Source: an uncultured Poribacteria bacterium
GTDB taxonomy: Bacteria; Poribacteria; WGA-4E; WGA-3G
Assembly (NCBI GenBank): GCA_951828515.1
Contig: OX639992.1
Location: forward strand, 2,520,217-2,584,216
Direction of reading: 5' to 3'
Length of the DNA stretch: 64,000 nucleotides
Shown: positions 18,216-22,002 of the stretch, piece after piece
How the letters are laid out: each line of letters starts with the position of its first letter
Numbering within the stretch: the first letter of the stretch is position 1
Position numbers and translations under genes: made by a program
Notes under the pieces: model-generated
The model's input: only the letters and a program-made list of their open reading frames with translations
Databases searched by the model: none
What the model was told of the DNA's origin: nothing

Positions 18216-19889
18216 TTACCGAATGGAGATTCGCGCTCGAAAAGCGTTGATACTCCCTTTCTCACCGACCCAACCGCCGGTAGCCCTCAGTCGAAAAACT
18301 TGTCCCTTATCGAACCGATATATAATTGTCCCAGTTTCACCGGGTTGAATCCCCCATGCGTGTGCAAGTGCGCTCTCAGGCATTCCTTCTGTAGAAGATT
18401 TGTTATTATCATCTAAAAGATCAAACGAACCTACTGGAGCTGTCCTGCCGACTTGAATATCAATAATCAGTGTCCCGCCGTCTTCAAACGCTGTGGCATC
18501 AATTTCTACGACAGTATAATCTTGAGAGCCTGCCTCAGGTATCTGAAAAGTGTCTAATATCTCTATTGACGGTTGCATAGGATTAAGAGAAATATTGCGG
18601 CTGCTTGCCAGACGGATCGGGTCTTTCTCACCCAATCCCGGACGTTTTCCTGCTAACGATTCTATAAGGAACAACCGATAGTGTTCTGCCCTCTTGTGTC
18701 TGTTGTGCCGCGAGAGTTCATTGATGGGTTGCCTGCCCATGAGTTCAAGAGTCGGCGAGATAACCAAAGAATCTACAGGTGAGAGCCTCTTCCACGCCCC
18801 GACGATTGTTTGGGTCAAAGGCGGCATTTCGTCAATACTTTTTGCATCGCGCAAACGTTTCATATCAATATTAAGCACCCATGTGTTGACAAAATTTTCG
18901 TTCAAGAATTTGATGTTCCCATCATCAGAGAGAGCAACTGCCCTCAAATTTTTGCCGCTCCCTCAGCATACTTCGTCATCAAGCGGACCATCTGTTGAAA
19001 CAACATGAATCTGTTTCTGTTGTGTCCTTGCTATTTCCAATGCTTCGTCTACCGATACCCAATTGATTTGTTGTGATTTGTAAAAGTGTAGTATCAGGGC
19101 ACGTTCGGCTTCTGCTAAGGTTATTGATTCAGAAAACTGAGTGTCTTGAACTATATCTTCTGCGCCAGTATGGAGTTCGATTTGTGGACAAAAGCCAGTA
19201 TCTGCCCCAAAAGAGGGACCGTCCCCATGGTATCGGTTGACATCGAAGTTGAGTGTCCCTTCAGGAACGTACATCCGAAAGAACGCGACTTTCTCTTCGA
19301 CGCGATTGATGATAAAATGCCCAGTAAACTGTGAGGGTGTAAACCAGCCGTTTTTTAACTTAAACTCTGCATGAATGCGGAATACGATATCCGCAAATTC
19401 GGCATTGTAAGCGCGCAGGCACGCCCACGCCCCGCGGGAATCTCCCGGATTGAGGTGCATATCCAGATTGGGATTAGGGTGAAGCTGTCTCAGCAATTCC
19501 AGTAATCCGTCCTCTTCAATCTGCCAGACTTCGCCGACAGAAACACTATTTCCTTTTCTTGTAGGATTTTCGTGAAGCAGTCCCTCCAATTCCTGCAAAA
19601 ACGATTTTTCTCTTGCCTTCTGCAGCCGCGCTTCAGTCGGGAGAAATGCCTGAAACACTGAAGCAGAATGGAACTTTTCAGGCTCAGCGACTCGTAGATT
19701 CGCCAGTGCATCCCACGTCACATGGAAGTTGTCTCGGGTGTACTCGATTGGGGCAATGAAACCTTTAACCAACACTTTGGCGTTATTGTCAAGCGTGAGT
19801 ACAATGCTGTCACGAATAGGGGTCTCATCCGAGAATCCATATTGCAAAGATAGGGCAAAAACCAGATAGCCGATGCCTAACGTTTTCAT
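18216..19889 (-). CDS. Selenoprotein N (SelN)-like protein with in-frame UGA (Sec309)
   Basis: Two adjacent open frames are one gene joined by an in-frame TGA at 18965-18963. The peptide around it, DGPLDDEVC-U-GSGKNLR, matches the vertebrate selenoprotein N redox motif (LDDxSCUGSGRTLR), and the downstream NENFVNTW matches SelN NESFISTW. Upstream, FRIHAEF, WFTPSQFTGH, LNFDV and CPQIEL also match the SelN core. Translation with Sec gives 557 residues: a signal segment (MKTLGIGYLVFALSLQYGFS), a SelN-like domain, a thioredoxin-like redox domain around Sec309, and a C-terminal module of about 115 residues also present on the neighbouring sigma factor. Start at 19889 because AGGAG lies 8 nt before that ATG. 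Export is inferred. It follows the ECF gene by 53 nt. An ordinary nonsense mutation is the alternative, but flanking conservation argues against it. Confidence 0.93.
18928..18965 (-). promoter_or_regulatory. SECIS-like hairpin at the UGA codon
   Basis: On the minus strand the UGA itself begins a stem: GAGGGAGC (starting at the G of UGA) pairs with GCTCTCTC 27-35 nt downstream, with one G-U pair. It extends by a further C-G and two G-U pairs, leaving a 15-nt G-containing loop. Bacterial Sec insertion needs such a hairpin just after UGA. No folding was computed. Confidence 0.55.
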
Positions 19890-19942
19890 TTTGAAATCTC
19901 CTGACAAAAATTGAAGGGATTGAGGAACTAAGTGTTACGTTA

Positions 19943-21286
19943 TCAAGGCGTAACTACGGAGAGTTCCCGAATAGAAATTCGCGCATGAAAAGCGTTAACG
20001 CTCCCCTTTTCGCCGAACCAGTCACCGGTAGCACCTAATTGAAAGACTTGGCCTTGATCGAACCGATAGGCGATTATTGCTGTTTCACCGGGTGAAATTC
20101 CCCACTCATGTGCAAGGGTGTTGTCCGGTGTTCCTTCTGTAGGAAGCTGACTGTTTCCATGGAACAAATCAAACGAACCTGCCGCTTTGCCACTACCGAC
20201 CCGGAGCTCAATGGTTAGCATGCCACCGTTTTCAAACGCTGTGGCATCGATTTTTACAACAGTATAATCCTGATGCCCTCTCTCCGGTGTCCGAAAAAAG
20301 TCCAAAATCTCTGTTTGAATCTGCTGTGTTTCCTCTATTGGGGGGACTATCTCCTGAGTTTGGGTGCCTGTTACTGGGAGGATATCCTCTTGTGAATTGG
20401 ATTGGCTGTTCTTACCCGACATGTTCATTTTACCGAGTTGTGTTCTCACAGCAGGTTTATCCTTGATGATTGGTTTCTCGGTTACCTCCACAATGTCAAC
20501 CTTTATAGCACGGATCGCCTCTAAACTATAGGGTTGATGGAAACGAGATAAATATTCATTGCTTACGCCAAGGGTGAGTGTAGCCAAAATAACGATTGAC
20601 GCGGCTATCGCCCATGGCACTACGGGTTTGCCACTTGTAGGAGGAACAGGTTTGATGCGGTTGGCTTCTCGTATAATGTTCTCGGTTAAATTGCTGGGCA
20701 ATTGTACGCTACTGAGCACGTCACTCACCAAAAGTTCTTCGCCTTGTGCCTGTAAACGCTTTCGCGCACGGCTAAGCCGACTCTTAATTGTGTTCGCCGA
20801 TACACCCAAAAATTTGCTAATATCCTTCACTTTCATTTCGCCAAGGTAGTGAAGCGTCACGACCGTACGTTCGCTCTCTGGCAACCTTTGTAGAAGTCTT
20901 TTGACGATTTTATGCCGTTGTTCAGTCGTTTCCAGGTCGAGTTGTTCCGATACATGATGTGTATAAGAGGCTTCTTCTATTTCTTCCATGGGTAGGTCCT
21001 CCAGTGATTGCATCACGTATCTGTTCCTTTGAATCCAATTAATGCAAAGTCGATCTACAATGACATAAAGCCATCCAGCAAACTGATTGGGATTTTTTAG
21101 TGTTGAGAGGCTTTTATGTACTCGAAGGAAGGCATCTTGCGTAATTTCTTCGGCAAGGTGAAAGTCCCCAAGCTTGCGCCATGCCAGCGCGTGAACACTC
21201 TTCTGATGTTTTCGGACTAATGCACTGAATGCCTCATCGTCTCCTGACAAAATTTTATGAATCAGTTGAACATCGTTTTCTTCCAT
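19943..21286 (-). CDS. ECF sigma factor with transmembrane helix and extracytoplasmic domain
   Basis: 447 residues. Region 2 spans about residues 8-88 (HLAEEITQDAFLRVHKSL, FAGWLYVIVDRLC). Region 4 spans about 135-185 (LPESERTVVTLHYLGEMKVK, then SKFLGVSANTIKSRLSRARK). After this comes one transmembrane helix (VPWAIAASIVILATLTLGVS, about 225-245), a low-complexity linker, and a C-terminal module of about 115 residues (DYTVVKIDATAFENGG to NAFHARISIREL) nearly duplicated at the end of the SelN-like protein. Linking a sigma factor to the membrane could replace a separate anti-sigma factor. First gene of the sigma-selN-permease run; AGGAAG precedes the ATG. Confidence 0.93.
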   Translation of the reverse strand: MEENDVQLIHKILSGDDEAFSALVRKHQKSVHALAWRKLGDFHLAEEITQDAFLRVHKSLSTLKNPNQFAGWLYVIVDRLCINWIQRNRYVMQSLEDLPMEEIEEASYTHHVSEQLDLETTEQRHKIVKRLLQRLPESERTVVTLHYLGEMKVKDISKFLGVSANTIKSRLSRARKRLQAQGEELLVSDVLSSVQLPSNLTENIIREANRIKPVPPTSGKPVVPWAIAASIVILATLTLGVSNEYLSRFHQPYSLEAIRAIKVDIVEVTEKPIIKDKPAVRTQLGKMNMSGKNSQSNSQEDILPVTGTQTQEIVPPIEETQQIQTEILDFFRTPERGHQDYTVVKIDATAFENGGMLTIELRVGSGKAAGSFDLFHGNSQLPTEGTPDNTLAHEWGISPGETAIIAYRFDQGQVFQLGATGDWFGEKGSVNAFHARISIRELSVVTP

Positions 21287-21507: not shown

Positions 21508-22002
21508 TCACTTGGCATCATAAATGAGCCAGATGCCTTCCACTTTTCGCATCTTAACAGGTACCTCCGGTGGCTGCGCCATCGGCACTCTTAATCGGAA
21601 ATGGAATTCATCACCCACATATTGGCTGCTCAAAACCTCCATCTGACGCAACATTTGACGTATCTGAGGACGTATATCCTCTGGCATCTCCTCAAAATCA
21701 CTTTCAAATGTTTCTCTGGCATCTCCTGTAAGCATCGAGCGTATCGTCTCTTCTTCTGTAGTAGCAGACTCCCATACAATATCACTTTGATCATCTGCGT
21801 TCTTCCCGATAAGTTCCATGCGTGGGACGAAAACCATATCTGCTCCATTAAAGGCATTGATGTCAACATTGGTATTGCGGGAAGGGAGATAGAGCCAAAG
21901 CTCTCGAATTGTCCCACTATTCCGATATCTCACCCCTTTATAATTAAAGACCCAGTTTTTGGCAAAAAGGTTGCATAAGGTCAAAAAATGGGAAAAATTC
22001 AA
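21508..22002 (-). CDS. Hypothetical protein, N-terminus doubtful
   Basis: The frame holds up to 164 codons. The C-terminal ~120 residues look genuine: acidic helices (TTEEETIRSMLTGDARETFE, MPEDIRPQIRQMLRQMEVLS) and a final strand FHFRLRVPM...VEGIWLIYDAK, which resembles a DUF4878/NTF2-like end. The first ~20 codons overlap a promoter-like motif (P3) shared with other sites, so they are unlikely to be coding. The gene may be 5'-truncated. No family assigned. Confidence 0.5.
   Translation of the reverse strand: MNFSHFLTLCNLFAKNWVFNYKGVRYRNSGTIRELWLYLPSRNTNVDINAFNGADMVFVPRMELIGKNADDQSDIVWESATTEEETIRSMLTGDARETFESDFEEMPEDIRPQIRQMLRQMEVLSSQYVGDEFHFRLRVPMAQPPEVPVKMRKVEGIWLIYDAK
21948..21975 (-). 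promoter_or_regulatory. Putative ECF-type promoter P3
   Basis: Minus-strand TGCAACC (21975-21969) with TTATGCAACCTTTTT context like P1 and P4. A GGTC/GTCT lies 16-17 nt further on. It sits inside the extreme 5' end of the 21508-22002 frame. Confidence 0.4.

Follow-up and report, generated by a model that had tools for sequence, protein, structure and literature searches.

The locus and its reading frame

The window, a stretch of 64,000 nucleotides from an uncultured Poribacteria bacterium, contains a gene resembling that of selenoprotein N (SelN). The gene sits among bacterial genes in a single contig of 5,849,392 bases (5.85 Mb). The features of the locus are as follows:

18216–19889, minus strand: SelN-like selenoprotein gene, 557 aa, with Sec309 (translation with TGA = U, and homologues)
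18963–18965, minus strand: UGA codon for Sec309 (codon 309)
19898–19902, minus strand: Shine-Dalgarno-like AGGAG, 8 nt upstream of the ATG (read from the sequence)
19830–19889, minus strand: probable signal peptide, residues 1–20 (hydrophobic N-terminus read by eye; low pLDDT at residues 1–22)
19086–19808, minus strand: SelN N-terminal domain, residues 28–268, carrying FRIHAEF, FTGH, LNFDV and PQIEL (homology to human SELENON)
18645–19079, minus strand: predicted thioredoxin-like Sec domain, residues 271–415 (structure matches, and profile alignment to thioredoxin proteins)
18219–18617, minus strand: predicted C-terminal PPC/collagen-binding-like β-sandwich, residues 425–557 (PliG 4dzg, Z 12.6; PPC 5sv5, Z 11.3)
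18930–18945, minus strand: predicted bacterial SECIS hairpin GAGGGC-AGUU-GCUCUC (conserved in homologues; 23 nt from the UGA to the start of the apical loop)
19943–21286, minus strand: ECF sigma factor with a PPC-like C-terminal domain and what appears to be a TM segment (TIGR02937, 4.8e-29; Pfam)
21508–22002, minus strand: remnant of another SelN gene, an internal piece lacking the Sec site (core profile positions 146–212, E 2e-12)

The SelN-like gene starts with the ATG at 19889 and ends with the TAA at 18218–18216. An earlier note on this DNA had given its coordinates and the residue number 309 exactly, without the strand, which is minus, and had read two adjacent frames parted by one TGA as a single protein. 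That reading holds: the TGA at codon 309 is the sole in-frame TGA of the joined frame, which has no other stops, and 175 of 180 distinct homologous loci of the Poribacteria carry TGA at this codon, so that its presence is not due to chance. The note was also right that TGA is not globally reassigned, since it ends 11 of the 44 long open reading frames of the window (TAA ends 17 and TAG 16) and is thus a normal stop. The motif around the site is DDEVC-U-GSGKNLR.

Homology to human SELENON

The human query consisted of SELENON residues 253–590, a reconstructed sequence that agreed at 15 of the 15 residues tested. Residues G273, H293 and N340, which we take to be reported SELENON variant positions, agree with it. 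Residues R262, R268, R291, H389, U462, R466 and R469 of the query, as well as I362-P363 with an inserted GYI, fit variants described in PMC8639696 and PMC8967691; G315 is consistent with c.943G>A, and the last residue of the query is number 590, which is the published length.

By blastp, this sequence aligned with the eight SelN-like paralogues of the window's genome at 27–34% identity over 239–314 aa (E 9e-45 to 4e-26), and the alignments cross the Sec site and cover both sides of it. A profile made from the eight paralogues scored human SELENON with E 1.2e-58, compared to E 56 for the best of 1000 shuffles. The match to SelN that the earlier note had seen in FRIHAEF, FTGH, LNFDV, PQIEL and the Sec region was thus recovered by both methods, on both sides of Sec. 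The note had also proposed a search with public profiles; neither Pfam nor NCBIfam holds a matching model. Sequence searches of Pfam, NCBIfam and the PDB with the window protein gave zero relatives.

In the alignment, EVC-U-GSGKNLR of the window protein is placed on SC-U-GSGRTLR of the human protein, and Sec309 on human Sec 462. When patient variants of SELENON (PMC8967691, PMC8639696, PMC12839072) were compared, the affected residues R291, G315, U462 and R469 were identical in the aligned window protein. By sequence, the window gene is a bacterial member of the SelN core family. It shares with animal and algal SelN a collinear N-terminal domain and Sec domain core, the active-site motif C-U-G-S-G-[KR]-x-L-R and, as described for algal SelN (PMC7539508), the near-constant use of Sec. 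Unlike animal SelN, which has a SECIS in the 3′UTR and is a type II ER membrane protein, the poribacterial forms carry an in-frame bacterial hairpin and appear either to be secreted or to lack an export signal, with no ER anchor; they also add a PPC-like or TlpA domain, and a single genome can hold as many as about 17 of them. No EF-hand was found among the Pfam matches of 59 members, and the core begins at about residue 28, straight after the signal segment, which leaves no space for an EF-hand ahead of it. Because the EF-hand is missing, the family is not filed in the vertebrate calcium-sensing (ER calcium sensor) SelN subfamily, whose members are type II ER membrane glycoproteins that act on SERCA.

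Domain organization and predicted structure

The AlphaFold2 model of the window protein (pLDDT 83.8) has three folded parts. The N-terminal domain, modeled alone as residues 23–268, reached a pLDDT of 89.5 and a pTM of 0.86. A comparison of this model with the PDB gave no clear match (lowest Foldseek E 0.13, highest Z 5.2), which does not prove that the predicted fold is new.

The model of the second part, the Sec domain, resembles DsbH (2ju5; Z 12.6, 125 aligned residues, rmsd 4.1), human AGR3 (3ph9; Z 11.2) and Thioredox_DsbH (7tkv; Z 11.1). In a profile alignment with two thioredoxin-type proteins, Sec309 falls on the first Cys of CxxC, with Cys308 just before it, while Gly312 falls on the second Cys. 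Residues 271–415 would therefore share the fold of DsbH- and AGR-type proteins, with Sec at the first Cys of CxxC, but the window protein has C-U at the site and Gly at the position of the second Cys, adds the SelN N-terminal domain, and gives Pfam matches that remain below threshold.

The third part is the predicted β-sandwich. Viral and toxin β-sandwiches also appeared among the Foldseek matches and were set aside, since they touch only this generic C-terminal domain. One paralogue, at L032:3456–5126 (minus strand), has a C-terminal AhpC-TSA/TlpA-like domain (E 4.4e-20) in place of the PPC-like one, and the CxxC of this fused domain is degenerate (WNGFC).

A conserved hairpin downstream of the UGA codon

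In the window gene, the predicted hairpin has a 6-bp stem, the loop AGUU and a spacing of 23 nt. Across loci, the hairpin has the form GAGGGC-AGKU-GYYCUC, or a register-shifted version of it, with the loop starting 23–24 nt after the UGA. The stem was perfect in one of three registers in 152 of 158 loci, and its variable pairs retain pairing as GC, GU or AU. Published constraints for bacterial SECIS elements (PMC13188914) comprise a loop of 3–9 nt with a G in the first two positions, a stem of 4–16 bp, a spacing of 16–37 nt and an MFE of at most −7.5 kcal/mol. They were satisfied by 135 of the 158 loci, whereas 40 rounds of synonymous-codon resampling gave 6.1 on average and 11 at most. Of the six stem pairs, 5.63 were formed, against 3.83. 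In the same region, the codon for Arg(+7) is AGG or AGA in 157 of 159 loci, whereas these codons make up about one quarter of the Arg codons elsewhere in these genes.

The window copy agrees with the published constraints in loop, G, stem and spacing; its hairpin alone has an energy of −7.4 kcal/mol, slightly short of the cut-off of −7.5. A longer competing stem that uses the 3′ arm of the hairpin is predicted in this copy and is the more stable of the two when folded in isolation (−16.2 for a 42-nt region, z −2.9). A search of Rfam with the hairpin gave zero matches and, compared to the published bacterial SECIS consensus, the poribacterial hairpin forms its own sequence class outside Rfam.

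The selenocysteine machinery

The earlier note had suggested looking for selA, selB, selC and selD in the same genome, and all four are present. The selA, selB and selD genes scored 594, 348 and 359 bits, respectively, and the tRNA-Sec (78 bits, anticodon TCA) lies about 160–180 nt after selB. Of the 85 genomes of the phylum, 72 have a selA that scores above the cut-off. The co-occurrence of SelA and SelB in most sponge-symbiont bins had already been noted in a metagenomic study (PMC5649159). The selD gene itself (G000:C1:4977731–4978654, L028) has one in-frame TGA.

The family in the Poribacteria

All eight SelN-like genes in the window's genome have a single in-frame TGA, at the same site, and four of them cluster at 3.615–3.625 Mb of the contig (C1). 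The paralogues most similar to the human protein, L007 and L032, both lack a signal segment. Matches to the family were found in 65 of the 85 genomes of the phylum; among the matches listed, the per-genome maximum was 17–18, some of which are possibly pieces. A scan of genome contigs with peptide patterns gave 52 loci, all from Candidatus Poribacteria, an outcome that is weak when taken alone because one of the two patterns, which contains CC, is unable to match C-TGA. When about 300 genomes from outside the phylum were searched with the profile, only two weak, thioredoxin-like matches were found, and a search of a plasmid collection gave no matches. The number of copies, the multi-copy family across the phylum, the SECIS hairpin, the lack of an EF-hand and the extra C-terminal domains all go beyond the earlier note.

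SelN was absent from the phylum's other classes and, within the same order, from some genera, although selA is present in most of them (the genomes without SelN in the phylum search are G001–G012, G015, G017, G019, G020 and G023–G026). This pattern may track the division of the Poribacteria into sponge-living and free-living groups.

The note had called for a comparison of U or C in homologues at position 309, and the result was U throughout, with few exceptions: among the 180 distinct loci, apart from the 175 with TGA, four have GGA or GGC and one has TGT, and the frame of the TGT copy is broken just after the Sec site. No intact Cys form was found among the 180. In the 159 loci inspected for this, the domain contains no further in-frame TGA. 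Across these 159 TGA loci, C(−1), G(+3) and L(+11) never vary, and K/R(+4), R(+7) and E(−3) almost never do.

Including L147, which is a near-duplicate of L146 and hence not among the 180 distinct loci, Gly (GGA or GGC) replaces Sec in five fetched loci (L047, L129, L132, L146 and L147). These comprise at least three sequence types, all of them orthologues of the window gene, a group in which the replacement is never Cys; the apical-loop G of the hairpin is also lost in L129 and L132. The Gly codons in these relatives of the window gene indicate that Sec is dispensable in part of the group. A change from Sec to Gly is an unusual route of Sec loss.

Proposed function and alternatives

We consider with high confidence that the locus encodes a bacterial SelN-core protein in which UGA309 is decoded as Sec, and that the product is probably exported and most likely acts as a Sec-dependent oxidoreductase of the envelope. 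The UGA would be decoded by SelB and tRNA-Sec(UCA), as directed by the hairpin just downstream within the coding region. In the predicted active site, Sec309 would replace the nucleophilic first Cys of CxxC and carry out the attack. The adjacent Cys308 would be the likely resolving partner, forming a Cys308-Sec309 selenenylsulfide, and Gly312 would stand in for the second Cys. The SelN N-terminal domain and the PPC-like domain may provide binding to substrates or to a surface. An envelope location is suggested by the hydrophobic N-terminus of the window copy, which would make the protein a periplasmic thiol-disulfide oxidoreductase, and the two paralogues that start at the domain itself would be cytosolic. 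The AhpC-TSA/TlpA-like domain on one paralogue supports a redox role.

We considered the possibility that the TGA is an ordinary stop, reflecting a pseudogene, an assembly error or two separate proteins. TGA does serve as a stop elsewhere in the window, and the hairpin of the window copy is marginal in energy. However, TGA occupies this same codon in nearly all distinct loci, from many assemblies, with no other stops in the domain; the protein is conserved on both sides of it, and the hairpin is kept beyond what coding would need, which makes an ordinary stop very improbable. We regard it as just as improbable that the UGA specifies an amino acid other than Sec, through a suppressor tRNA or programmed read-through. 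Recoding of the TGA as such is deduced from sequence, but the machinery for Sec is complete and includes tRNA-Sec(UCA), the hairpin is of SECIS type, correctly spaced and with a G in its apical loop, and Sec also occupies the corresponding position, 462, of the human homologue.

The relationship to SelN might also be limited to the thioredoxin-like Sec domain of an otherwise different selenoprotein, as ordinary thioredoxin-like proteins from other phyla give weak matches to the profile. This appears less probable still, since the alignments with SELENON cover 240–295 residues, at about 31–34% identity, and include the N-terminal region with FRIHAEF, QFTGH, LNxDV and MEL, a domain without a clear match in the PDB. 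Finally, Poribacteria inhabit sponges, and sponges have SelN (PMC3473315), which raises the question of host DNA in the assembly. The single 5.85 Mb contig, the bacterial neighbors, the uninterrupted frame, the Shine-Dalgarno-like site, the in-frame hairpin of bacterial type and the occurrence of the family in 65 genomes render a eukaryotic source exceedingly improbable. A bacterial SelN with Sec at position 309 is thus the reading that we adopt.

Origin of SelN

SelN was described as animal-specific in a 2007 survey (PMC2375036) and was found in some algae as well in a 2020 survey (PMC7539508); a metazoan survey reported it in the sponge Amphimedon (PMC3473315). A 2026 review of prokaryotic selenoproteomes names no prokaryotic SelN, and none was found in the open-access journal literature that we searched, so that earlier reports are possible. 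Two papers in that literature mention both Poribacteria and selenocysteine, and neither of them concerns SelN. We tentatively suggest, as a possibility rather than a probability, that the eukaryotic and poribacterial forms are connected by gene transfer between symbionts of sponges and either early eukaryotes or animals. The gene may well have moved from the bacterium to the eukaryote, in which case a 3′UTR SECIS would have replaced the in-frame one. In an unrooted tree, human SelN sits on a long branch (1.77) between two poribacterial clades; because the tree is unrooted and the human branch is long, it does not give the direction of transfer. If the suggestion is true, the bacterial ancestor of a disease protein, SelN, would be recoverable.

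Human SELENON is a muscle-disease protein that is awkward to study, and a large bacterial family is now available for this purpose, whose proteins may be easier to make. The many divergent copies within one phylum provide a deep alignment and, through it, a confident model of the SelN fold. The family also shows which of the positions mutated in patients are conserved between the human and the bacterial proteins, and raises the question of the origin of SelN. It is a rare family in swapping Sec for Gly and, in this sample, not for Cys.

Neighboring genes

The ECF sigma factor gene lies 53 nt upstream of the SelN gene, and the C-terminal domains of the two proteins are 64% identical. Of 56 SelN loci, 12 have such a sigma factor in the flanking sequence retrieved, and a regulatory link between the sigma factor and the SelN gene is possible. 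Farther along the same strand, the SelN remnant at 21508–22002 is joined to a tail, MLTGDARETF.., that also ends another SelN paralogue.
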